DNA of 64,000 nt from Oscillospiraceae bacterium (GTDB taxonomy: Bacteria > Bacillota > Clostridia > Lachnospirales > Lachnospiraceae), in assembly GCA_021771715.1 (NCBI GenBank), contig JAETOO010000018.1, positions 62,001-126,000 on the forward strand, read 5' to 3'. Both the position numbers and the translations under genes were made by a program. Under the pieces are notes generated by a model that saw only the letters and a program-made list of their open reading frames with translations, searched no databases and was not told where the DNA came from. How positions within the stretch are numbered: position 1 is the stretch's first letter; each line of letters opens with the position of its first letter. Below are positions 6,805-19,732 of this stretch, in pieces.

Positions 6805-7431
6805 TCATAGGATGTCATCATCCTGGCGGCCAGCCAGCGCGCCCGCAAAACAGATAGCGCTAAGGGCCAGCAGCATAAGCCAGAGCGTCAGGTTGACGGG
6901 ATCGTCGGTCTGTGGGGCATGTCCCGGGGCAGTGGAAGCTTCTTCCTTCCGGTAACTGTTTGTAAAGGAAATGTGATCGGCTTTTTCACCACTTTCCGTG
7001 TAGGCTACGGTGGAGGCGGTCAGGCCGCCGTCCGCGGCGTTTGTCACATAAATCTTTAGGGTATAGACTTCCCCGTCACAGGTATAGCCCTCTTTCCGGT
7101 TTTTGGCGGTCTGCTTTAGCTCATAGCGGTAGATCCCGGTCCTGGTAAACACGATCTGCGCCAGCTTTACGTCCTCCGTCCCTTTCATGGTGAACGAATA
7201 GCGGTCAGCGCCCTGCTCTGGCATGGGGGTTTCTGATTCCAGCGGAGTCAACACATACGAAAAGGTATCCTCTGCCTGCAGCGTCGTATAATTGACGAAC
7301 GTCTGGCTGACCGGCAGGCTCACACTTACGCTGTCCGAAGCCGCATAAGCCGGGCTTGCCAGAACGGCCGCAATCAGCACGGCTGTCAGGGCGCGGAAAC
7401 ACGTTGCGATTACTCTTTTCACACAGCTCAT
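6805..7431 (-). CDS. Small pilin subunit (FctB/basal-pilin-like) with sortase sorting signal
   Basis: A 208-residue secreted protein: signal peptide ending near SPAYA, one Spy0128/FctA-type pilin isopeptide domain, then a C-terminal sorting region. In the domain FTMKG, GIYRYELKQ and ISFTNSY supply the Lys, Glu and Asn segments expected for an intramolecular isopeptide bond. The C-terminus reads APQTDDP, a hydrophobic stretch and a short tail that lacks the usual Arg/Lys. This is a variant of the LPxTG signal. ATG 7431 overlaps the sortase stop codon by 4 nt and has AGGAGG 6 nt upstream. By position (last gene after the sortase) it corresponds to FctB, the wall-proximal pilin in streptococcal FCT operons. 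Confidence 0.85.
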   Translation of the reverse strand: MSCVKRVIATCFRALTAVLIAAVLASPAYAASDSVSVSLPVSQTFVNYTTLQAEDTFSYVLTPLESETPMPEQGADRYSFTMKGTEDVKLAQIVFTRTGIYRYELKQTAKNRKEGYTCDGEVYTLKIYVTNAADGGLTASTVAYTESGEKADHISFTNSYRKEEASTAPGHAPQTDDPVNLTLWLMLLALSAICFAGALAGRQDDDIL

Positions 7432-8363
7432 ACGCTTCCTCCTTTCCGTTTTCGATTTTTCCTGAACCTGCGGTAACTGCAGGCGGCCAGGAAAAAGAGC
7501 GCCATCAGAATCATAAGTACTGTCAGGACAACCAGCCACAGAGGGAGTTCCTGCAGGCGTTCCCTCAGCGTAGCGTTCCCGTCAATTCCTGTCAGGTGTT
7601 TTTCCTCGGGTTTCTGATAGAAGGGATCCTCCTGTACCTCATCGGTGATCCGGCCCACCAGTACGTGACGGCCGTTGGTGGCCTGCGAGGAGCAGGTGCT
7701 GAGCAGCACCAGATGCGGATCCTGCATCTGGGGAAGCTCCCGGAGATTCCGGGCATGTTCCTTGATCCGCCCCAGATAGGCTGCCTGCTCATCGACTCCG
7801 GTGATGCTGGGCCGGTACAGCTCGTCATAGGCGTCGATCTCCAGGAAAGCAAAAAATTCGATTCCGTGTTCTGCACCGGCGTAATAGAGTGTCCCGTACC
7901 GATGTGTATTGAAATAATCCGCTTCCCTGAAATCGGCGATCTCCCCGAACATCACCTGTTTGTCCATGTGATGTCCGTAGATAATGCTGTTAAAGTCTGT
8001 GAAATCGTTCCGGTTCCGGTAGTCCAGAAACAAGCTTCCCGACAGAGAGTAAGTCCCGTCGGCAGCGGTGTTCACGTACTTGTCGTTATCCGCTCCCTGA
8101 ACCAGCGGGTAGTCGATGTTCGTTCCGTACACCGTCAGCCAGCCGAACACGTCCGGATTCCTCTCCTGCAATGTCTCAAAGGATACGCTGTCCTCGACGA
8201 CCGGCCTGTAAATTTCATATTGCGTGTTGTCCGCCGCTGCATAGAGCTGCTGAGAGTCCCACAGCGCGTAGCAGCCGTAGGACAGGAGCAGCAGGAGAAC
8301 GGACAGCACCGCAAGATTCACAGCGCCGTCCAGCAGCCGGATCAGTTTTCTGCCAATGTTCAT
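7428..8363 (-). CDS. Class B sortase, pilus-polymerising type
   Basis: A 311-residue membrane protein with an N-terminal transmembrane segment (about 13-33), an extracellular sortase domain and a second C-terminal membrane segment (about 274-297). The catalytic residues are visible: H131 in IIYGHHM, C224 in LLSTCSSQ and R232 in NGRHVLVGR. The long insert between His and Cys (FFAFLEIDAYDELYRPS) is typical of class B. Pilus-building enzymes of FCT type 3, such as SrtC1/Spy0129 in group A Streptococcus, are also class B, which fits the neighbours. It lies between the backbone pilin and the small pilin, with 4-nt ATGA overlaps on both sides. It should link pilins through their (A/V)PTG-like signals. 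Confidence 0.93.
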   Translation of the reverse strand: MNIGRKLIRLLDGAVNLAVLSVLLLLLSYGCYALWDSQQLYAAADNTQYEIYRPVVEDSVSFETLQERNPDVFGWLTVYGTNIDYPLVQGADNDKYVNTAADGTYSLSGSLFLDYRNRNDFTDFNSIIYGHHMDKQVMFGEIADFREADYFNTHRYGTLYYAGAEHGIEFFAFLEIDAYDELYRPSITGVDEQAAYLGRIKEHARNLRELPQMQDPHLVLLSTCSSQATNGRHVLVGRITDEVQEDPFYQKPEEKHLTGIDGNATLRERLQELPLWLVVLTVLMILMALFFLAACSYRRFRKNRKRKGGSV

Positions 8364-9517
8364 GGTTTATTCTTATAACTTCTTCTTTTGAGTACGATAT
8401 ATCCGGCAAAGCCGCATACAGCCACGAGAATCAGAATGATGAACGGGAGGTTGTTGACAAGGATGCCGGTGGGAGCAGGATTATTTTTTGTGTTGGTGAA
8501 AGTGACACGGTTCGTGTCCTCGCCAATCACAGCATTGGTCGGTGAGACCGCAGTGCTCTGTCCGTTTACCATTGCCTCCACTGTGGTGCTATAGCCGTCT
8601 GAATTCGTCTCTGCAACGGTGTAGATCGTACCGACAGGCAGATGGTCAAACACCAGAGACTCACCGTCAGCCAGGGTAAAAGTATTGCTTACCGCGGACA
8701 GTTCGAAACTGGTGTCGGTGGCCAGCGACCCATTCGCACGGGTAATCGTACCTGTGTACGTAGTTCCCGGCGTCTCCAGGGCAGACAGCGTATTGAGGTT
8801 CATGGTAAAAGTAAATTGTTTGGTCTTATCGCCCAAAGCACCGGTAACGGTCTTGGAAATGGTCAGAGCATTGTTCGCGTTTGTGCCGCCATTTTTAGCG
8901 AATTTATTGACAAAGATCCAGTCGCTTAAATCGTCGCCTGTGCCGGGGGTAGGGTCAACTTTGCCGGTCTTTGAATTGTCATCGTCATCCTTGACATAAT
9001 TCACATATATACCGCTAATTTCCAGACCATTGGTACTATTTTTAATGTGGATTTCCATGTTGTATACCGCTTTGGAGTAGGTCAGGGCCGTACCTGCCGC
9101 TGCGGCATAGCCGCTGTGCTTTTCTGCTATCTCATATTGGTACACACCGGCGTGGGGAAACTCGTTTATGTCAGGGATAATATTTGCCGTTTGTTTTTTT
9201 ACTTCCTTCAGGTTGCTGCCGGCAGCCGTGGTTCCGGCATCTGAGGAACTGTATGATATGGACGGCACTGTAATCGTGGGCATTTCCGCCAGCGCGGTAG
9301 GATCGTTACTGCCATCCAGGGAAACCTTCTTTACATCAAAGGTAAAGGTTACATTTGGGGTGGTTACATTCTCATCCATCTGCAGATTCTTGGTGATCGC
9401 GGCTTCTGTCACACCGTCACCGGTCGCTGCGAACACGCTTGTGTCGAATCCCAAGCTCAGCATCAGAGCCAGGGCCACTGCGGACAATTTGGCGACAAAG
9501 CTCTTTTTCATCATCAT
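8360..9517 (-). CDS. Pilus backbone protein (FctA/Spy0128-like major pilin)
   Basis: A 385-residue secreted protein with a signal peptide ending near SVFAA. It has an N-terminal FctA-type domain (VTFTFDVKK, GVYQYEIAEKHSG, DWIFVNKF) and a second immunoglobulin-like pilin domain (ALTISKTVTGAL, FTFTMNL, YTVAETN, VTFTNTK). Both look able to form Lys-Asn isopeptide bonds. The end carries PAPTGI, a hydrophobic segment and KRRSYKNKP, a sorting signal of the xPTG type. Three tandem ATG codons (9517, 9514, 9511) follow AAGGAGG; the first is only 3 nt from it, so translation may use the second or third. A clear gap of about 100 nt separates it from the signal-peptidase-like gene. Confidence 0.9.
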   Translation of the reverse strand: MMMKKSFVAKLSAVALALMLSLGFDTSVFAATGDGVTEAAITKNLQMDENVTTPNVTFTFDVKKVSLDGSNDPTALAEMPTITVPSISYSSSDAGTTAAGSNLKEVKKQTANIIPDINEFPHAGVYQYEIAEKHSGYAAAAGTALTYSKAVYNMEIHIKNSTNGLEISGIYVNYVKDDDDNSKTGKVDPTPGTGDDLSDWIFVNKFAKNGGTNANNALTISKTVTGALGDKTKQFTFTMNLNTLSALETPGTTYTGTITRANGSLATDTSFELSAVSNTFTLADGESLVFDHLPVGTIYTVAETNSDGYSTTVEAMVNGQSTAVSPTNAVIGEDTNRVTFTNTKNNPAPTGILVNNLPFIILILVAVCGFAGYIVLKRRSYKNKP

Positions 9518-9617
9518 GTTCCTCCTTAAAATTAGGTTAAATAGAGTTTGTATAAAGAAAAGGGAAGCCCTTTCTCTTTCTGTAAGTAAGTGTGCCGTGG
9601 GTCTCTTCACGGCAATG

Positions 9618-10163
9618 CTAAAATTCTCTGCGCCGGATGATCATCATGACCTTGCCCAGCGCGTCCTCTGCCCTGACCGGGCCGTACACCCGGCTGTCGG
9701 TGGCGTTGTCTCTGGCATCCCCCAGAACAAATACCTCGCCCTCCTGCAGAGTGACAGGGAAATCCCATCCGCTTTCATAGCGAAAGGTGCTCTCATAGAT
9801 ATCCGGCTCATACTGTGCAACGCCGTTGATGGCCAGGCCTTCGTCGGTGATATCCACTGTATCCCCGGCCACGGCCACGACCCGCCGCACCTGCCGTCTG
9901 CCCTGGTAATCCAGCACCAGACAGTCAGAGGCATGGTAATCGTCGTCCAGCCGGTAAAAGATCACGAGATCGCCGTCCTTCACCGAGGGGAACATATCCC
10001 CGTCCTGGTTGCGGAACAGCCCGAACACAAAGGTGAACAGCAGTCCAAAGGCGGCGGCCAGTGCAGCGATCTTCAAAATCAGCGCCAGCAGATCCTTCCA
10101 CAGGGGTGGGGCTTTGTTGGGCGCAGAGTCGGTCTGCCCCGGTTCCGGATATAAACTCATCAT
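9618..10163 (-). CDS. SipA/LepA-like signal peptidase homologue lacking the catalytic dyad
   Basis: A 181-residue protein with one N-terminal transmembrane segment (about 25-48) and a type I signal peptidase fold. In the serine box the usual GxSMxPTL reads DGDMFPSV, so the nucleophile is D56. In the lysine box the usual VKRVxGxPGD reads VRRVVAVAGD, so the general base is R93. Box E (GDARDNATDSR) is retained. The group A Streptococcus pilus protein SipA also lacks both residues (Asp and Gly, as I recall, also 37 residues apart) and is needed for pilus polymerisation as a chaperone-like factor. The start is ATG 10163 or 10160, coupled to the adhesin stop (ATGATGAG). A start at 10196 is possible but would overlap more. 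Confidence 0.88.
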   Translation of the reverse strand: MMSLYPEPGQTDSAPNKAPPLWKDLLALILKIAALAAAFGLLFTFVFGLFRNQDGDMFPSVKDGDLVIFYRLDDDYHASDCLVLDYQGRRQVRRVVAVAGDTVDITDEGLAINGVAQYEPDIYESTFRYESGWDFPVTLQEGEVFVLGDARDNATDSRVYGPVRAEDALGKVMMIIRRREF

Positions 10164-13100
10164 CGTCCACGCTTTCTGCGCGCTCTTGCGCTGCACACGA
10201 GATACACGCCGGAGCCGAGCAGAGCGAGCACCAGCATGACCATAAGCTTCCGGATCTCCATGCCGTCACGGATCCCGGTGGGAACCGCTTCCTTCCGGGT
10301 GTTGGTAAAGGCTGCCACTGCAGCTTTACCGGCCTGAATCGTACCGGTATCACCAATGGAAGTGGGCGTATAATTCGTGTCTGCCGTCTCCGTCACGGTA
10401 TATGGAATGCCGGCCGGCAGCCCGGAGGCAGTTTTCGTCTGCCCGTGTTTCAGGGTAAAGGTGGCTGTGCCATCTTTAAATTCCATATCCCCGTATGTGC
10501 CGCTGAACCCATTGGTGTCTGCAGGATACCCGTAGATGCCTCTGAGACTGGCATCGTCCAGTGTCACCGTAAAAGTAAACTCTTTTTCCCGGTTGCCCAG
10601 GTCGCCCGCCACCGTCTTGGTCACGGTCAGATCACCCGAAGCCTTCTCCCAGTTGGCTACAAAGGCCAGTGCTCCGATTGTTCCGGCGCTGACCTCCAGG
10701 GTGGGATAAGAGCCGGTTCCTGTATTCGGAGCCGCCGTTGTCCCGACGCCCAGACTCCAGTAGGAGAACCGGTACAGCTTGCCGTTTACCCACACCGGTC
10801 CGGGATTTACCGCGGAAAAGTGATCCTTTACCGTATACTGGGTAGGATTCTTGCCGGACGGAGTATGTTCGACCGGGGTGTCTGCCGCTGCGGTCACTTC
10901 AGCCAGCGCAGCGTCCAGTGCAGTCTTCGCCGCCGCAGGAGAACTGTCAGCGTTCTCATAGGTGATGGGATACACGATAGGCTGCACCAGATAAGTGATG
11001 GTGTCGGGGATATTGTCTCCGGCCAGTGTATCCATATTCCGTATGTTGCCTCCCTGATCGAGCCAGGTCAGATCCTGGTACGCAGTTACCGCCGTATAGG
11101 TTCCTCCGTCGGCATTTCGGTTGACCAGCTCATAGCCCATCCCGGTCAGCTCCTCTACAGCGGCCGCGCCGGGCGTTATCACAATCTGGTCTGCATTTAC
11201 CCGGAGCGCATGCACGACTGCGGGATCTGCCCCTGTCTCTGTCCCGGCCTCCACAAACTTTACCGTGTAGCTGCCGGTGGCCTGAGGAGCGTAGAAAAAG
11301 ACAACGTTATAAGTTTTGCCGGACTCTGTGACTTCCACTGTCTTGTTTGTCTGTTCCGGGACGTATCCGGGCCACAGCTTCGCTGTCAGATTCAGGACCA
11401 GGTTGGGAATATACACCTGATCAGTCCACTCATCCCTCTCCAGCACATAGTAGGAAGTCCCGCCGTCATCAACGATCTCCCCAGCGTCATCGATCTGCAC
11501 GGTTTCAAAGGTTTTGTCTTTGTCTGCGTCACTTAGCGCCTTTGTCACATAGCAGACATTGTAGCTGTACGTTTCTGTGGTGTTCGCCGTCCATACAGCG
11601 GCAACGTGGGTGTCTTCTATGATAACAGAATCAAAGCTGAAGGGGATCATCTCTCCCGGTACATGGGTTGGCTGCCCGTTTTGGTCGACGGTCTGTCCAT
11701 GCTCGTCTGACAGGAACCATCCTGCCAGTGTGTAGCCGCCGCGGACAGGGCGGGGAATGGTGCCGACGGCGGTGTACACGGTGTTGGAAGGAATCGGCAC
11801 TTCGGTGTGCTCCCCGCTGCTCACATAGCCTCCGTTTAAGTGAAACGTCACCTTCAGAATCGGCGCTTCCCAGATGGCATAAAGATCCAGGTTGCTGTCG
11901 ATATAGAAATCATTTGCCGCCTGGCCCTGTGGAGTGTACGCGTCCGGCATCATCCACTGCATGTTGACGCCTGCCGGACCCAGGCCCCAGCCCTTGAATC
12001 TCCACACTGCCGTACCGTTTGGATTCCGGTCAGGGCAGACCGGGACCGCGTCGCCCGTGGGATAAGTCCACAGGTATTTTGGGGTATCGCCGTCCTGCGC
12101 CTGGTTGGTATCCGTGTACAGCAGGTGAAAAGCGTAGTCGTCCTCGGTCACGTGGGCGCCGTAGGGCAGGTCGATATGGCCCAGTTCGTGGATATTATGG
12201 TTGGTACCGGACGTCATGTAGGTGATCCGGTAGCGATCCCGGTTGTAGTAGAAATAGAGATCGTAGGGGGCATCCGTGGAGCCCACAACTTTTTCCTTTA
12301 CTTCTGGTCCTCCCCAGGTCCGGCCATCCGTATCCTCATGCCGGCTGGTATGGTCGGCATTGTCGTTGGCACGGGTCATGTGCTGCCGGGCGCTCGGGTT
12401 CTGCGCGAGAATCCAGTTGGAGGACGGCGCTGTCACCCGCCGGGCGACGGCATAATAGCTGGTCTCGCCGCCGGAGGTGTACCCGCGCACAGCGTAATAT
12501 CCGCCGCCCTTCACATTATATGTAACCGTGCCGGACCCGGAGTCGTAGGCCACCTCCATCAGGTCGGTAAATCCGAATCTGGTAATTTTTTCCGTATCGA
12601 CAGGCACCAGATACATGGTATCCTTCAAGGCTGTGGAGCTGTTGTAAAGGCTGACTGTCTGCACATCCGCCGCATCGATATCCAGCCCCGGCACCTCGTA
12701 GCAGTGGTTGTAGCGGTAATAGCTGATAGCCTGATTGTACCAGTAGGCCGGCAGATGGTGTACGGTGCGAGGGTCAGCCGGATCGGCGATGACCTCGACA
12801 TCCATAGTGGTATACAGTCCCATGATGGTGGGCTCGTCGGTATGGCTGGTGTTGGGAGTTACCGCGTCGTCCCGGTATTTTCCCTGAGTGGTGGCCCAGG
12901 AGACCATTTTGGCATCGCCGCCGTTTGTCGCAACGTGCTCTTCGAGCCGGGCGGCAGGCCAGACGTCCCGCAGATCCGCGCCGTACTTGGCCGTGATGGT
13001 AATGGTCTGCGGAACTGGCATCTGATCTGCACTGTCCAGGTTCGTTGGCCGTAAATATACGTTGTATTTCCCGGAGCTGGGCTCTTTGGTGTAATAAAAC

Positions 13101-15928
13101 TTCAGATCCCCATTTTCTATAACTTCATCCGCCCTGGCATAGCTGAAGCCGTTTGTGTTGATAGCTACGCAGTAGGGAGATTCCTGATTATCAACGGTAG
13201 CCGTGCCGTAGTAGTGAAACTTGAGGGTGTAGATATTCCTGGTGAAGTACACGTAGATCATGGTTCTGCCGTCGGCATTGGCTGTGGTGGTGGAATAGTC
13301 CATCACATTGCCGGTCTCGTGCAGGATCTCAAAGGAATCCTGGGCATAGAACCGGCTGACCGGAGTGCTGCCCGCAGTTCCCATGACGGTGAGGAAATTT
13401 TGGGCAACTTGCGCCTGAATTTCACTTGTCAAAGCTGCGCTGCCATTTTCTACCAGGGAGGAATCAGTGGGCACTTCTATGGTAAAGCTGCCCATATTGC
13501 TGTAATTCGCGTTATTGCTTTTCGGCACGGGGGCATGGGTCACCGGGCTGGCGCCATAACCGCTGTATTTCTGAGTGTAGTAATCCGATACGCCCCCGGA
13601 TACCGCTGCCTGCACGTCGTCCACACCGGTCAGATCCTCCGTCCAGAAGAGCACCGTCACCTGGGTGGTGTCCGGTTTCCAGATGGGATAGAGGTACAGC
13701 ACCGGCACACCGTCCATTTCCTGGAGCTTTGCATCGTGCGTGATCACTTGTTCACTGATGGTAAGCTGATAGTGACCGCCCTCTTTTGATACAGGTATGT
13801 ATGCGGAGGAATCATATGCTCCGTTTTCGTCCGGCACAGCGTCCTTTTTCAGATACTGCCAGCCGTCAAATTGATACCCCTTGCGCGTCGGGGTCGATGT
13901 CTCCATAAAATCAAAGTTCACCGCTTCCCCCAGCTTGACCTGCTGTCTTGGAATGTAGGTATTGTCGGTATTGAAAATGACGCGGTAGGAATCCGCTGCC
14001 TTGTAATAGATGTCCACCGTCGTGCCTGTCCCGGTCCCGGATTCATTCTTGATGAGCTGCTGGGAGAAGCCCAGCGGGACGAGCAGATCGTACACGCCTC
14101 CCGTCTTCGCGGAGGCCCTTGTCAGGCCGCCCACGCGGCCCTGCAGCCGTTCCGTATCCAGAAGGACATAAGAAACGCCATCTGCGGTCTTTATTTCATT
14201 TTTTTGTGCCTTTTCCTCAAGCTTTTCCTCTGACAGACCTGAGAGTCCGGTGGGAACCCAGTGGTATACCGTGTACCAGGTGGCATTGCGGCGGTAGTTG
14301 ACGGTGAGGTTGAGGACGGTTGCCTGCGGGCTTTGGAGCTGCGCCTCGATAAGCGCCGCCAGCTGATCCCCGGTGAGTATCACCTTCAGCTCGGGATGTT
14401 CCAGAGCATTCGCGCCGTGATCCCCGACACCCTGCTCGGGTGCATTCCCGGAAATGGCCATCGCTGTATAGTCCTTTTCCGTGAGGGTGCGGGCAGTGTT
14501 CCATGCCTCATTGTAGTTGGTGGAGTAACGGTTGCCATATTTGGGGTTCGTAGTCCCGCCGGGGACTTGCTGATAGTAGTAAACGGTGTTTTTTTTGATA
14601 TCCACGCTGAAATCACCGTTCTGCAGCATCTCATGAAGTTGCTGCTGCGTCTCATTTCCCGTCGGCGGGTTCACGAGGTACTCATTCAACGGTTCGGGAT
14701 TCAGCACGATGCGGAAACCCTCTACGGTAGGGAGCGGAAACTCAAAGGTATACGTGTCATCGTTCTGCTTCACGAACAGCGCCTCCACGATCTCGGGAGA
14801 TGCCGCGTCGATCCCTGCCAGGCCGCCGGTGCTGGAGTACTTGTATTCCACCTGCAGCCGGATGACGGATGCAGGTACAAAGATGTAGTCGGAGAGCTGT
14901 CCCTCAAACACGTCCCGCAGAACGGAGCCCTCGTTCCCGGTCTCACCCGCAGGGATCATCGTCCAGCCGTCGGCGACGGCATATACGATCCGCGCACCGC
15001 CCTCGCGGCTCTCGCCAAAGGCTTCCAGGGGGAGGGGCTTCGCCTCCGTGACCGTGAGCTGTCTGGCATCATAGGCGAAGCGACTCAGGTCGCACACACC
15101 ATCCTCAAAATCCGCCTCCGTCAGCTCGAGCGTCTCCTCCGCCTTGACATTCCGGCCTTCGCCATTCACGGTAAACCGGAAATAGTGCGTCAGATACAAG
15201 GTATAGACGGCCTCTGTCTCTTCCGCTGTCTGCTCCTCCGTTTCAACTGGCTCCTCTGACTCGGGAGAAGTCTCTTCCGGATCTGCCTCGTCGGAAGGAT
15301 CTGTCTCTGTTCCGGTTGCCTTATCGGAAGAAGTTGTCTCGTCGGAAGGATCTGTCTCTGTTCCAGTTGCCTCAGCGGAAGAATCCGTCTCCGTTCCGGT
15401 TGCCACGTCGGAAGAATTTGCCTCCGTTCCGGTTGCCGTGTCGGAAGAATCCGTCTCCGTTCCGCTTTTCGCGGGGGAGGTGTCTGTGCCCGTCTCGCTT
15501 TCCTCAGCGGAAGTGCTGTGCTCCGCTTCGTTTTTTCCAGCGGAAGTGCCTGCCCCCGTTTCGTTTTTTTCAGTAGAAGCGCTCGTTTCCGCTTCGCTTT
15601 TTCCAGAAGAAGTGTCCGCTTCCGTTTTGATTTTTCCAGAAGAAGTGTCTGGCGCCGGCTCGGTATTTTCTGAGGAAGTGCTCGGCAATGTCTCGTTTTT
15701 TTGTGCGGGAGTGTCCGGTTCCGTCACGGCCTCCGCGGGAGTCAGGGCATCCTCACTGATCGGTTCCTGGTTTGTGACAACAGCAGAACTGTCATCCACT
15801 GCGGTTACCGTTCCGGTGATGCCTGAGCCAAGCAGTACAGCGCAAAGCGCTGCACTGACCACCCTTCGCCATTTTTTTGATCCACGCGTTTGGCCGCTGC
15901 GTTTTTTTGAAGAGAAATTCATGTTCAT
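10160..15928 (-). CDS. Giant sortase-anchored pilus adhesin (1922 residues)
   Basis: Signal peptide of the long KKxxRR type (cleavage near residue 45), then about 170 residues of Ser/Thr/Glu-rich repeats built on ATGTETDSSD-like units. A very long ectodomain follows. It holds InlB B-repeat/Listeria-Bacteroides-type modules (RKGYQFDGWQ; GGYTLAGWF), a MucBP-like segment (YTVKFVEAGTETGADP, about 1590-1660) and a final SpaA/FctA-like module (LTVTKTVAGDLG, FTFTVTLDD, YTVTETAD, VAAFTNTR). The C-terminus has EAVPTGI, a membrane segment and RARRKRGR. I do not see the Cys-Gln thioester domain that Cpa adhesins use. As the first gene of the operon it corresponds to the tip adhesin. AAGGTGGG lies upstream of ATG 15928; ATG 15922 is an alternative. 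Confidence 0.88.
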   Translation of the reverse strand: MNMNFSSKKRSGQTRGSKKWRRVVSAALCAVLLGSGITGTVTAVDDSSAVVTNQEPISEDALTPAEAVTEPDTPAQKNETLPSTSSENTEPAPDTSSGKIKTEADTSSGKSEAETSASTEKNETGAGTSAGKNEAEHSTSAEESETGTDTSPAKSGTETDSSDTATGTEANSSDVATGTETDSSAEATGTETDPSDETTSSDKATGTETDPSDEADPEETSPESEEPVETEEQTAEETEAVYTLYLTHYFRFTVNGEGRNVKAEETLELTEADFEDGVCDLSRFAYDARQLTVTEAKPLPLEAFGESREGGARIVYAVADGWTMIPAGETGNEGSVLRDVFEGQLSDYIFVPASVIRLQVEYKYSSTGGLAGIDAASPEIVEALFVKQNDDTYTFEFPLPTVEGFRIVLNPEPLNEYLVNPPTGNETQQQLHEMLQNGDFSVDIKKNTVYYYQQVPGGTTNPKYGNRYSTNYNEAWNTARTLTEKDYTAMAISGNAPEQGVGDHGANALEHPELKVILTGDQLAALIEAQLQSPQATVLNLTVNYRRNATWYTVYHWVPTGLSGLSEEKLEEKAQKNEIKTADGVSYVLLDTERLQGRVGGLTRASAKTGGVYDLLVPLGFSQQLIKNESGTGTGTTVDIYYKAADSYRVIFNTDNTYIPRQQVKLGEAVNFDFMETSTPTRKGYQFDGWQYLKKDAVPDENGAYDSSAYIPVSKEGGHYQLTISEQVITHDAKLQEMDGVPVLYLYPIWKPDTTQVTVLFWTEDLTGVDDVQAAVSGGVSDYYTQKYSGYGASPVTHAPVPKSNNANYSNMGSFTIEVPTDSSLVENGSAALTSEIQAQVAQNFLTVMGTAGSTPVSRFYAQDSFEILHETGNVMDYSTTTANADGRTMIYVYFTRNIYTLKFHYYGTATVDNQESPYCVAINTNGFSYARADEVIENGDLKFYYTKEPSSGKYNVYLRPTNLDSADQMPVPQTITITAKYGADLRDVWPAARLEEHVATNGGDAKMVSWATTQGKYRDDAVTPNTSHTDEPTIMGLYTTMDVEVIADPADPRTVHHLPAYWYNQAISYYRYNHCYEVPGLDIDAADVQTVSLYNSSTALKDTMYLVPVDTEKITRFGFTDLMEVAYDSGSGTVTYNVKGGGYYAVRGYTSGGETSYYAVARRVTAPSSNWILAQNPSARQHMTRANDNADHTSRHEDTDGRTWGGPEVKEKVVGSTDAPYDLYFYYNRDRYRITYMTSGTNHNIHELGHIDLPYGAHVTEDDYAFHLLYTDTNQAQDGDTPKYLWTYPTGDAVPVCPDRNPNGTAVWRFKGWGLGPAGVNMQWMMPDAYTPQGQAANDFYIDSNLDLYAIWEAPILKVTFHLNGGYVSSGEHTEVPIPSNTVYTAVGTIPRPVRGGYTLAGWFLSDEHGQTVDQNGQPTHVPGEMIPFSFDSVIIEDTHVAAVWTANTTETYSYNVCYVTKALSDADKDKTFETVQIDDAGEIVDDGGTSYYVLERDEWTDQVYIPNLVLNLTAKLWPGYVPEQTNKTVEVTESGKTYNVVFFYAPQATGSYTVKFVEAGTETGADPAVVHALRVNADQIVITPGAAAVEELTGMGYELVNRNADGGTYTAVTAYQDLTWLDQGGNIRNMDTLAGDNIPDTITYLVQPIVYPITYENADSSPAAAKTALDAALAEVTAAADTPVEHTPSGKNPTQYTVKDHFSAVNPGPVWVNGKLYRFSYWSLGVGTTAAPNTGTGSYPTLEVSAGTIGALAFVANWEKASGDLTVTKTVAGDLGNREKEFTFTVTLDDASLRGIYGYPADTNGFSGTYGDMEFKDGTATFTLKHGQTKTASGLPAGIPYTVTETADTNYTPTSIGDTGTIQAGKAAVAAFTNTRKEAVPTGIRDGMEIRKLMVMLVLALLGSGVYLVCSARARRKRGR

Positions 15929-16041: not shown

Positions 16042-16069
16042 AGTATAGCATGTTTTCTGACACTGAAAA
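16042..16069 (-). promoter_or_regulatory. Candidate promoter of the pilus operon
   Basis: On the minus strand TTTTCA (16064-16069) and TATACT (16042-16047) are 16 nt apart. The -10 is strong and the -35 is poor, which suggests activator dependence or tuning. The start would lie about 105 nt before the adhesin ATG. The leader contains an eight-T/A tract. Confidence 0.45.
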
Positions 16070-16096: not shown

Positions 16097-18241
16097 TCAT
16101 CCGGCCCGGACGGTGTTTGCCATATCGAGGTAGGAGCCTCTCGCCCAGGAGCCTCCCGCGGGTGCGAGGAGGACCTGGATCTTGGTGACGGACTTGCGGA
16201 AGCTCCAGTTCCCGAGTGAGACGGACAGACGCACCGGCTGGTTGGCCGGGATGGTGCCCGAGCTCTCGAGTATTCGCTTTCCGCTGTAGAAGCGCAGCTT
16301 CACAACGACCTGTCCGCTGGTGGGCCCCACGGCAGTGAGCGTGGTGCAGAAGCGCGGCGCTTTGTCAAAGGAGAGCTTTTTCTTGAAGCTCTGCGTGAAG
16401 CCCCAGAGGCTGTTGCGGTTGCGGCTTCCGTCGTGGGTGACGCGCCAGGTGCCGCTGGACTTCCTGGCAGAGGAGGCCGCACCGTATTTGCTCCATTTGG
16501 AGGAGATCGAAGCTTTTTTCTGATAGCCTGCGCCGATTTCCATCGGGACGGAGACGAGGCTCGTCTTGCTGTAGAGCGAGGCGTTATAGCCGGGGATGAG
16601 CTCAGACCAGCTGGATGCGCCGATTTGGGCGAGCGCAGCATTGGCCACGGACGGAGACTGGTTGGTGTCCATGTACTTGAAGACATTCCAGGAGTCCTTT
16701 TTGGTGTTTGCCCACTCCGGGTTGGAGCCGTTTGTCGTCGTCCAGAGTCCGAGATTCAGCCCCTGGTTGACCTCGACGCGGTGATCGACATGCCGGTTCA
16801 TGATAAAGGAGTCAATCATGTCGTCCGCCTCTGTCAGATAGTAGCTGTAGACGATGGCGGCAGACTGCTCTTTTTCCACGTTCCGCTTTTTCTGGACGGA
16901 GGTAAAACCCTGCTCGGACAGGATCACACGCGTGCCGGGGCCGTACGTGCTGCGGATGTAGGAGGTCAGCAGGCCGATGTTTCCCATGTTGATGACCGGG
17001 GTGGTCAGGGACTGGGTGAGCTGGCCGTTTTTATTTTCCCAGAACTTCGGCTCCGTCAGCGGAGAGCTGTACGGGTGGTAGGCGAGATTCCACGGGATGC
17101 TCCCCTGCCGCGAGAGCGCGGCTGCGAAGGAGTCGAGCATCTTCCGCGAGGCGTACGTGCCGCGCACGGTATTCGTATTCCAGAGATGGTCGAGCGATAT
17201 GTACACTCTTGCATTTGCGTATACGCTTGCGACGGTGTTGTAGGTCATCCGGAACGCGTTTGCGTAGATCTGGGCGTACTGGCTCAGCGTCTTTGTGCCG
17301 GCGTAATTGTAGACCTTGTAGTTGTTGACCTCGTTCCCGACGATCCAGTTTGCGATCCTGCCGTTTTTGGCGGAGGAGGAAGCGTAGCGGCCGGCGAGGA
17401 AGGACAGCGTGGCCTGAAGCTGTTCCCGGGCCGACGCATCCGCGGTGTTCCAGGCGTAGAAGGAGTGGCCCTTCTCGCGGCCGGACGGATAGATCAGGTA
17501 GGTGAGGTCCTCGCGCCAGCCGAGGAGCAGGATCGCACTCACGACGGTGTCGGATTCCTTCAGCGCCCGGAGCTGCCGGTCGTAATTTTCGACGACGGAT
17601 TTGCGGAACCAGAAGGTCTTCCCGTGATATTTGTAGGCGTAGGAGGCACTTTTATTCCGCTCAGACGGGGCGGAGATCACCTCGGAGAAAACGATATTCA
17701 GTACCGAGTGCCGGACGTTGAGCTCGACGGCGTCCTCGACCATCGCCGCGCAGACCTGCAGGCCCTTCTTTGAGGCGGCCGTCGGAAATTTGTACCGGTA
17801 TTTTGCGGCTTTGCCGGGGTTGGACAGATATCTGGTGTCGCTGATCATCACATACTTGCCGTTTTTCCTGGCGGCGACTGCGAAATGAGAGTACAGCCGG
17901 CTGGAAGCCTTTGATTTGTTCAGCGCAAAGGAAAAATTCATGGTCTTTGCCTTTTTCTTTGTCTGAATCGGCTTGGCGCCGCTGGGGATCTTGGTGTCCG
18001 CGGGGGACAGGGCAAACAGGTAGCACTTGCTGCCGGGCACCGCCTTGGTGTTGGAGAGCCTGGCCGTGACTTTTACCTTTGAGGCGGAGGTCAGCTTGCA
18101 CGTTGTGATCTTTGCGGGCTTCGACGCCGCACGGACGGTTCCCGACGGAAACAGCAGCAGGAAGAGCAGCAGAAGCGGCAGCAGCGCGCAAAGCCCGCGG
18201 CCGTGCCGGGCGGTGCGATGGGTCTGGTTCATGACATTCAT
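16097..18241 (-). CDS. Secreted DUF5722-like protein (probable glycosidase-fold domain)
   Basis: A 714-residue exported protein: signal peptide ending near TVRAAS, an Ig-like N-terminal domain (about 40-145), then a large domain resembling DUF5722 proteins of Lachnospiraceae. This part has features of clan-A glycosidases: WIVGNEVNN (Asn-Glu, about 300) suits an acid/base residue, and RVILSEQGFTS (Glu, about 445) suits a nucleophile. A beta-sandwich C-terminal region (about 590-714) may bind carbohydrate. No sorting motif or membrane anchor is seen, so it is probably released or held non-covalently. AAAGGGAG lies 6 nt before the ATG. It is transcribed toward the pilus operon but has its own upstream region. 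The enzymatic role is inference. Confidence 0.75.
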   Translation of the reverse strand: MNVMNQTHRTARHGRGLCALLPLLLLFLLLFPSGTVRAASKPAKITTCKLTSASKVKVTARLSNTKAVPGSKCYLFALSPADTKIPSGAKPIQTKKKAKTMNFSFALNKSKASSRLYSHFAVAARKNGKYVMISDTRYLSNPGKAAKYRYKFPTAASKKGLQVCAAMVEDAVELNVRHSVLNIVFSEVISAPSERNKSASYAYKYHGKTFWFRKSVVENYDRQLRALKESDTVVSAILLLGWREDLTYLIYPSGREKGHSFYAWNTADASAREQLQATLSFLAGRYASSSAKNGRIANWIVGNEVNNYKVYNYAGTKTLSQYAQIYANAFRMTYNTVASVYANARVYISLDHLWNTNTVRGTYASRKMLDSFAAALSRQGSIPWNLAYHPYSSPLTEPKFWENKNGQLTQSLTTPVINMGNIGLLTSYIRSTYGPGTRVILSEQGFTSVQKKRNVEKEQSAAIVYSYYLTEADDMIDSFIMNRHVDHRVEVNQGLNLGLWTTTNGSNPEWANTKKDSWNVFKYMDTNQSPSVANAALAQIGASSWSELIPGYNASLYSKTSLVSVPMEIGAGYQKKASISSKWSKYGAASSARKSSGTWRVTHDGSRNRNSLWGFTQSFKKKLSFDKAPRFCTTLTAVGPTSGQVVVKLRFYSGKRILESSGTIPANQPVRLSVSLGNWSFRKSVTKIQVLLAPAGGSWARGSYLDMANTVRAG

Positions 18242-18478: not shown

Positions 18479-18572
18479 TATAGTAGTACGGAGCGAGGGG
18501 GAAGTAAAGAAAATTTTGTCATGGCGTCGGAACTCCTTCTATAATAAATGCGTAGATTTTAAAATTTGCGCA

Positions 18573-18601
18573 TTGCCAAAAACGGAAAAATAGTCTATAG
18601 T
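18573..18601 (+). promoter_or_regulatory. Sigma-A type promoter for the CdaR-like regulator
   Basis: TTGCCA at 18573-18578, a 17-nt spacer and TATAGT at 18596-18601. This gives a start near 18608 and a leader of about 40 nt. Confidence 0.7.
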
Positions 18602-18646
18602 AACTGTATACATTCGAAAATCGAAAACGAAAAGGACGTGGTAAAA

Positions 18647-19732
18647 ATGATTTCCAGCCAGATTTTACAGAACACGATAGATGAGCTGCATGCGATCACG
18701 CGTGTGGATTTTGCCGTTATGGATATTGAGGGGAATGAGATTGCGACGACACAGCAGCCGGGCTTCGTGCTTCCGCAGGCGGTCGCGCAGTTCGCGGATT
18801 CCCCGGCGGACAGCCAGGTGGTGCAGGACGCGCATTTCTTCAAGATATACGACGAGAAAACGCTGGAATTTGTGCTGGTGTCAAAAGGGACTTCGGAGGA
18901 TGCGTACATGCTCGGGCGCGTCGCGGTCAGCGAGATTCAGAATCTGATCGTTGCGTACAAGGAGCGTTTTGACAAGAACAATTTCATCCAGAATCTTCTG
19001 CTGGACAATATGCTCCTGATCGACGTCTACAACCGCGCGAAGAAGCTGCACATTGACACAGAGGTCCGCCGGATCGTGTATCTGATCGAGACGAAGTATG
19101 AGAAGGACAACACGGCGATGGAGATCGTCAAGGGTCTTTTCAGCAGCCGGACGAAGGACTTTATCACGGCAGTCGACGAGAAGAGCATCATCCTTGTGCA
19201 GGAGCTGCGCGAGCAGGACGGTTACGAGGAGGTCGAGAAGACGGCCAAGATGCTGCGTGATATGCTGAATACAGAGGCCATGTCGAGCGTGCGCATCGCC
19301 TACGGCACGATCGTAGGGGAGATCCGCCAGGTGTCGCGCTCCTACAAGGAGGCGAAGATGGCGCTGGATGTCGGCAAGATCTTCTACATTGAGAAGTCGA
19401 TTATTGCATACAATACGCTCGGAATCGGCCGTCTGATCTATCAGCTGCCGGTGCCGCTGTGCCAGATGTTTATGAAGGAGGTCTTTACGGATGCGTCGCC
19501 GGATTCGTTTGACGAGGAGACGCTGACGACGATCAGCAAGTTCTTCGAGAACAATCTGAATGTGTCCGAGACTGCGCGTCAGCTCTACATTCACCGGAAT
19601 ACGCTGGTGTACCGCCTCGAGAAGCTGCAGAAGAGCACGGGGCTTGATATCCGCAAATTTGATGATGCGTTGACGTTTAAGATCGCGATGATGGTGGTCA
19701 GCTACATGAAGTATATGGAGCAGCAGATGTGA
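18647..19732 (+). CDS. CdaR/PucR-family transcriptional regulator
   Basis: A 361-residue regulator. Residues about 1-130 (QILQNTIDELHAITRVDFAV, EIATTQ) resemble the sugar-diacid recognition domain of CdaR. A central GGDEF-like, non-cyclase domain follows. The C-terminal PucR-type helix-turn-helix (LNVSETARQLYIHRNTLVYR, about 308-327) completes the family layout. CdaR homologues control uptake or breakdown of sugar acids and related compounds. Here no target gene lies next to it, so the ligand is unknown. I chose ATG 18647 because AAAGGA lies 9 nt upstream and the promoter fits; the longer frame to 18566 would begin upstream of the likely transcription start. Confidence 0.85.
   Translation: MISSQILQNTIDELHAITRVDFAVMDIEGNEIATTQQPGFVLPQAVAQFADSPADSQVVQDAHFFKIYDEKTLEFVLVSKGTSEDAYMLGRVAVSEIQNLIVAYKERFDKNNFIQNLLLDNMLLIDVYNRAKKLHIDTEVRRIVYLIETKYEKDNTAMEIVKGLFSSRTKDFITAVDEKSIILVQELREQDGYEEVEKTAKMLRDMLNTEAMSSVRIAYGTIVGEIRQVSRSYKEAKMALDVGKIFYIEKSIIAYNTLGIGRLIYQLPVPLCQMFMKEVFTDASPDSFDEETLTTISKFFENNLNVSETARQLYIHRNTLVYRLEKLQKSTGLDIRKFDDALTFKIAMMVVSYMKYMEQQM

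Follow-up and report, generated by a model that had tools for sequence, protein, structure and literature searches.

Five genes described here very probably form a complete operon for a pilus assembled by a sortase, of the type that pairs SipA with a class B sortase, and working by the mechanism proposed below. They lie in a window of 64,000 nucleotides, which is the whole stretch of DNA that was analysed. Judged by its sequence, the operon is an ordinary member of a pilus type that includes FCT-2, FCT-3 and FCT-4 of group A Streptococcus (GAS) and the pneumococcal islet PI-2. It points to covalent fibres in anaerobes, where such fibres have been little studied.

Organization of the Operon

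Five open reading frames follow one another head to tail on the minus strand (15928-6805). They encode, in order, a tip protein, a SipA-like protein, a backbone pilin, a class B sortase and a base pilin (Table 1). This set had been proposed in a preliminary description, and the reading frames and family matches bear it out. Chance is excluded, because the products match known families (TIGR03064, PF10502, DUF7601 and PF12892). The sorting motifs given there, VPTGI for the tip, APTGI for the backbone and APQTDD for the base, were the same when the sequence was read again.

The ATG starts of the SipA-like, backbone and base genes were picked on ribosome site and overlap. The last three genes had been said to overlap by ATGA, and such overlaps are present between backbone and sortase and between sortase and base. 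Given a SipA start at 10163, the tip and SipA genes share a third. The sole intergenic gap, of 100 bases, lies 5' of the backbone gene and contains a good ribosome site, AAGGAGG. We infer a single transcript from the five genes. Promoter-like sites such as the one upstream of the tip gene were seen 14 times in the region by consensus scan, against 6.0 expected.

Two further ideas were tried. A hairpin in the gap between sipA and the backbone gene was rejected as an expression switch: it has a z of -1.35, and 19 of 200 shuffles fold equally well. Foreign composition is uninformative, with a GC of 0.554 in the operon and 0.544 in the window.

A gene for a DUF5722 protein (16097-18241) lies upstream and a Na/Ca exchanger downstream. 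Among the neighbours read there is no RofA/Nra-type regulator; the nearest regulator found is PucR-type (18566-19732). The DUF5722 gene occurs in 14 of 30 genomes of the same genus, its own included. In G407, G408 and G413, the 17-18 kb around it hold none of the other window genes tried, the exchanger included, so that no clean empty site is defined.

Table 1. Features of the pilus operon, in the order of transcription.
Feature	Position	Strand	Basis
Promoter-like site TTTTCA-16-TATACT, upstream of tip gene	16042..16069	-	Consensus scan only
Tip protein, putative adhesin, 1922 aa	10160..15928	-	ORF; DUF7601 and Flg_new repeats; homologues
33-nt (11-aa) tandem repeats near tip N-terminus	15249..15530	-	Repeat search, family D1
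Tip head, residues 230-1760, about 1,500 residues, conserved, Listeria-Bacteroides repeats	10649..15241	-	
Tip DUF7601 domain (residues 1765-1878), akin to Cpa C-terminal domain	10295..10636	-	Family search, sequence comparison
Tip sorting motif VPTGI	10271..10285	-	Read from sequence
SipA-like pseudo-signal peptidase, 181 aa from ATG	9618..10163	-	Nearest PDB chain 4n31; S26 family
SipA Asp56, position of signal-peptidase catalytic Ser	9996..9998	-	Alignments
SipA Arg93, position of signal-peptidase catalytic Lys	9885..9887	-	Alignments
Backbone pilin, 385 aa from ATG, two Ig-like domains	8360..9517	-	PDB matches; AF2 model and Foldseek
Backbone Lys186 in GKVDPT, candidate polymerisation nucleophile	8960..8962	-	Conserved column; aligns with PitB KV
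Backbone sorting motif APTGI	8462..8476	-	Read from sequence
Class B pilus sortase, 311 aa, His131/Cys224/Arg232	7428..8363	-	TIGR03064; tree; invariant columns
Sortase C-terminal hydrophobic helix, then basic tail	7476..7544	-	Hydropathy scan
Base (minor) pilin, 208 aa from ATG, FctA/FctB-type domain	6805..7431	-	PF12892; AF2 model; Foldseek
Base Lys150, candidate acceptor for backbone	6982..6984	-	Invariant in 22/22 base pilins
Base sorting motif APQTDD	6901..6918	-	Read from sequence; comparison with relatives

Distribution among Genomes

Related loci were found through SipA, and the best 80 of 115 confirmed loci were compared; some genomes contribute two. Their labels include Clostridia, Erysipelotrichia, Streptococcus, Peptostreptococcus, Coriobacteriia, other Actinomycetota and one Dehalococcoidia bin. 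Bin labels may be wrong, and isolate records are present for Lacrimispora, Hespellia, Blautia luti, Desulforamulus and Tractidigestivibacter. The preliminary description had seen a complete pilus operon outside its best-studied hosts. By its genes the operon is complete, but it is not isolated, since many Bacillota and some Actinomycetota have its like, and a Clostridium pilus of this kind has been published (in passages of PMC8088525).

The same genes tend to lie together. With the window proteins as queries, backbone, sortase and base were found downstream in 55 of the 80 loci. A class B sortase lies within about 8 kb in 62 of the 64 loci among these best 80 that have at least 4 kb of sequence downstream of sipA. 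Profiles, built partly from the loci they then scored, found backbone, sortase and base in 53 of those 64; L086 has its sortase upstream and L062 has none. As the loci were found by SipA, this linkage count runs in one direction.

A survey of the window's family looks at linkage from genomes rather than from loci. SipA (E <= 1e-30) is present in 48 of 397 genomes, its own counted; of 55 SipA matches, at least 40 have a class B sortase match no more than 5 kb away. A high-scoring pilus-type sortase (cut-off 1e-55, set after the scores were seen) occurs in 35 of the 48 SipA-positive genomes and in 7 of the 349 others (Fisher p about 2e-32, without correction for kinship). Thus 13 of the 48 lack it, with G073, G353 and G377 narrowly below the cut-off, and 7 of the 42 genomes that have it lack SipA. 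Any class B sortase at all was rejected as a marker of the operon, as 308 of the 397 genomes match at 1e-30, ordinary SrtB among them.

Within the genus, SipA is found in 8 of 47 genomes, its own included, and G413 carries a diverged SipA copy elsewhere than beside its DUF5722 gene. The operon is therefore accessory. G354 at first seemed to have a pilus sortase without SipA, but the stretch may be a remnant, since it matches the C-terminal part of the backbone and gives no SipA or base match. In a bin labelled Propionibacteriaceae (L050:10492-17509), five tandem backbone-like genes lie between sipA and the sortase gene.

Proposed Mechanism

From gene order, predicted folds, the sortase clade, the missing dyad and conserved residues we infer the chemical steps, the location of the tip and the role of SipA as follows. 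The class B sortase would be held in the membrane by a helix at each end. It would cut the T-G bond in the PTGI of the tip protein and of each backbone subunit, and join the cleaved subunit to the next backbone at a lysine, probably Lys186. The result would be a fibre with the 1,922-residue tip protein at its end, in which two internal Lys-Asn bonds stiffen each backbone subunit. Incorporation of the base pilin, perhaps via Lys150, would stop growth, and the genome's other class B sortase would join the base to the wall. SipA, with a catalytically dead signal-peptidase fold, would act in the membrane as a chaperone or scaffold for sortase and pilins.

The Pilins

The backbone carries a DUF7601 domain (3.9e-21), and its best sequence matches in the PDB are PitB proteins (4s3l, 1.6e-23). 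An AlphaFold model built with 28 sequences (mean pLDDT 87.1, pTM 0.75) matches PitB with a Foldseek E of 1.1e-25 (TM 0.60/0.68). It also matches Spy0128 (5.7e-19), with a poor superposition of the two domains together (TM 0.34/0.43). In an alignment of the window protein with 27 of 70 locus proteins, the residues of the triad K43-E132-N204 are kept in 28, 28 and 27 of 28 sequences and those of K222-E303-N342 in 25, 26 and 28. The column of Lys186 holds Lys in 25 of the 28.

The base pilin contains an FctA domain (PF12892, 6.5e-13). Its AlphaFold model (pLDDT 87.8, pTM 0.66, 22 sequences) has FctB as its best Foldseek match (1.8e-10), the FctB-type matches being 5ttd, 3klq and 8k6t. The linking Lys of GAS FctB lies in the final strand; Lys150, just before the final strand, might be its equivalent, although this is a guess. 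Gln43 is invariant in all 22 base pilins aligned (the window and 21 of 56 locus proteins) and lies, by eye, in the first strand, where backbones carry the bonding Lys. FctB is described without an internal bond in passages of PMC7900414.

The tip protein is not a known adhesin, and its role in adhesion is putative. A comparison with Cpa had been suggested. Kinship with Cpa holds for the DUF7601 domain at its C-terminus (6.3e-27), but the rest of the protein is no Cpa homologue. No thioester or vWA family matched it at E <= 1, and neither a DxSxS nor a CW motif was found in the sequence. The in-frame 33-nt repeats of its gene could change the length of the stalk from strain to strain.

The head of the tip protein is found in many other settings. 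Residues 230-1760 have 109 homologues among 7992 candidates scored, and 162 positions are at least 95% conserved over 95 rows longer than 1,500 residues, the window included. SLH domains are present in 24 of the 109, and many others end in PxTGD-like signals. A few have an ending of the TGI type, as in this operon (P0130, P0132, P0180, P0217 and P0234). Given SLH ends on the one hand and sortase-type ends on the other, the same large head seems to be shown on surfaces in several ways. It is a sizeable, conserved surface module that Pfam covers poorly.

Proposed Anchoring of the Fibre

The base carries PQTDD, whereas all nine relatives compared, including one with 96% identity, have xTG at this place (eight PxTG, one IQTG). 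No sorting-signal model matched the base motif at E <= 10, and none matched the 96% identical relative (P0121) either. This departure makes anchoring the least secure step of the model.

A different fate of the fibre is possible, though rather unlikely. The base signal may be poorly processed, so that the polymer grows but finishes with a base that stays uncleaved and is retained by its own C-terminal helix, and the fibre stays in the membrane or is shed instead of being anchored to the wall. The motif is in keeping with this, yet class B motifs such as NPQTN do not require a Gly at that site. The helix is followed by a weakly basic tail, but the same is true of the 96% identical relative. By eye, the base genes of seven other loci (L019, L034, L037, L042, L043, L057 and L068) lack a PxTG and finish in a hydrophobic helix, which would fit base pilins held in the membrane; against this, the genome encodes a second class B sortase, L006.

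Anchoring to the wall is the preferred reading, with L006 as the likely enzyme. The genome's remaining sortases are five of class C type, one partial, presumably so by their motifs. Several of class C type, outside the window (G000:C31; G000:C42:186000-195300), stand beside LPxTGG proteins, one of which, in a 3018-aa frame, also carries FctA and DUF7601 domains. For the base pilin of C. perfringens, passages of PMC8088525 likewise suppose a class B enzyme to do the anchoring.

The SipA-Like Protein

The SipA-like protein belongs to the S26 peptidases (PF10502, 7.9e-23). Its nearest solved structure is GAS SipA (4n31, 3.1e-22), followed by 4k8w, named 'LepA' (1.1e-20); true signal peptidases rank below these in the PDB search, at 6.9e-7 and weaker. 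The Ser-Lys catalytic dyad is absent, with Asp56 and Arg93 in its place.

The same loss can be followed through the 80 loci and through 120 homologues listed of 1002 (P0001 being the window's own cluster). The two sets overlap, four being identical over the last 120 residues. The Ser is present in 28 of 80 loci and 18 of 120 listed homologues. The Lys is missing from 79 of the 80 and 119 of the 120, leaving one in each set. Both residues occur together in none of the loci and in one listed homologue (P0115, from a 599-base contig). By eye, the five other S26 matches of the genome all have S-M and K-R at the two dyad sites. With the dyad gone in SipA loci and kept in the genome's other S26 proteins, its loss therefore tracks the SipA family well beyond streptococci. 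That the protein is an active signal peptidase maturing the pilins is highly improbable on these counts, despite its S26 fold, the occasional Ser and the retention of Gly at position Gly272, seen in 73 of 80 loci and in 118 of 120 listed homologues.

Other residues distinguish SipA from four signal peptidases of the same genome. Gly48, Arg71, Gln117 and Arg179 are absent from those four, and each is found in at least 95% of 201 SipA rows. Thr126 and Arg177 are likewise kept, but one of the four also has Thr126 and one has Arg177.

According to passages of PMC4049620, GAS SipA has Asp and Gly at the dyad positions, shows no peptidase activity and is required for polymerisation; its Asp and a nearby Lys are given there as not conserved in the SipA of other species. 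In the GAS literature, passages of PMC7900414 say that the function of SipA is not known and that it is unexplained why class B sortase pili need it. Most other pilus operons have no sipA-like gene, as stated in part of PMC3019223. With dozens of diverged SipA-sortase pairs at hand, the role of SipA can be approached through conservation.

The Sortase and Its C-Terminal Helix

The sortase passes the class B equivalog cut-off of TIGR03064 (1e-51; 175.5 bits, cut-off 153.75). His131, Cys224 and Arg232 are invariant in all 22 sortases aligned (the window and 21 of 66 locus proteins). Its best sequence match in the PDB is 4y4q, which is nearly identical to an S. oralis islet sortase (L065).

A tree of 57 rows was made from the window, 32 of the 66 locus sortases, all 16 second sortases, three S. 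oralis second sortases, L006 and four PDB segments. It groups the sortase with Spy0129, 4y4q and the islet sortases of S. oralis (clade support 100/99), and L006, Lmo2181 and 5b23 fall outside. The position of the window sortase inside the clade is not resolved, and Spy0129, L006 and Lmo2181 are long branches. Its nearest relative in the tree is L011. The three nearest sortases are labelled Lachnospiraceae, but for a mobile operon such labels do not prove the host.

It is most improbable that the enzyme, for all its class B family, is an ordinary anchoring sortase and the 'pilins' monomeric wall proteins, as the tree sets it apart from L006, Lmo2181 and 5b23 and the backbone is of Spy0128/PitB type. 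Four products match, by sequence, fold or tree, the proteins to which they had been likened in the preliminary description or close kin of these: SipA, PitB/Spy0128, the pilus class B sortases and FctB. Its expectations of a Spy0128-type fold in both pilins and of a pilus-type sortase agree with the Foldseek matches and the clade above.

Polymerases of class C typically have a C-terminal membrane helix. In a hydropathy scan of the window and 66 loci (L021 not evaluable, so n=66), 62 of 66 SipA-linked sortases have such a helix, the window's included; L011, L018, L049 and L079 lack it. It is absent from L006 and from all 15 evaluated of the 16 second sortases that follow the base gene. It is present in the three second sortases of S. 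oralis, whose place in the tree is inside the pilus clade. The wider clade suggests that the helix may be a structural mark of polymerising activity, and it offers a testable mark of the polymerising clade. Next to SipA in L116, L120 and L121, the class B sortase matches are exceptionally long, at 501, 421 and 443 aa, and may be a multi-helix variant.

Passages of PMC3019223 report Spy0129 with an N-terminal anchor only and no C-terminal helix, and conclude that no structural feature marks polymerising activity. The SrtC used with SipA is described in part of PMC4049620 as carrying a C-terminal transmembrane domain, so the trait is not wholly unreported. A narrow search of open-licence PMC found no statement of dyad loss outside streptococci or of a clade-wide C-terminal helix.

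Nearly all relatives examined share two traits, the dead SipA site and the second sortase helix. A broader proposal is put forward tentatively and is somewhat less likely true than false. SipA and the two-helix class B sortase may be one old, conserved membrane machine, found across Bacillota and Actinomycetota and, next to the class C sortases, a second type of pilus polymerase of Gram-positive bacteria. SipA would have lost proteolysis and kept a binding fold. The C-terminal helix would distinguish the polymerising clade from class B enzymes that anchor, with Spy0129 as an exception that lost it.

Comparison with Known Systems

The operon is closest to PI-2 in its backbone and sortase, and to FCT-2/-3/-4 and the NE pilus of C. 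perfringens in its gene content.

PI-2 of S. pneumoniae and S. oralis (pitA-sipA-pitB-srtG1-srtG2) differs in that srtG2 takes the place of the window's base pilin and that, in oral streptococci, PitA contains vWA (passages of PMC3178606). SipA is common to both. PitB is the best match of the window backbone in sequence and fold, and the S. oralis islet sortases also have a C-terminal helix.

FCT-2, FCT-3 and FCT-4 of GAS (Cpa, SipA, FctA, SrtC and FctB) have the same gene order as the window. They share its gene content, base pilin included, a SipA without the dyad, a class B sortase and the FctB fold. The window lacks the thioester head of Cpa and an adjacent RofA/Nra-type regulator, its motifs are PTGI, and its sortase has the helix that is reported missing from Spy0129 (part of PMC3019223). 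FCT type 3 had been named as the model. The gene content fits, but the type is too specific, since its components are common to FCT-2, -3 and -4 (passages of PMC7900414) and the backbone and sortase score best against PI-2-type proteins.

The NE pilus of C. perfringens, from the VR-10B locus, is made by CnaA, FimA, FimB, a 'signal peptidase' and a class B sortase (passages of PMC8088525). Compared by description only, it likewise has three pilins, a signal-peptidase-like gene and a class B sortase in one transcript, and its base pilin is thought to be a class B sortase substrate; its tip differs in having a collagen-binding domain (same passages).

Class C sortase pili of the LPxTG type are also covalent polymers of pilins, and their polymerising sortase also has a C-terminal helix. 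They differ in their class C enzymes and LPxTGG signals. The genome studied here seems to encode several of these pili as well.
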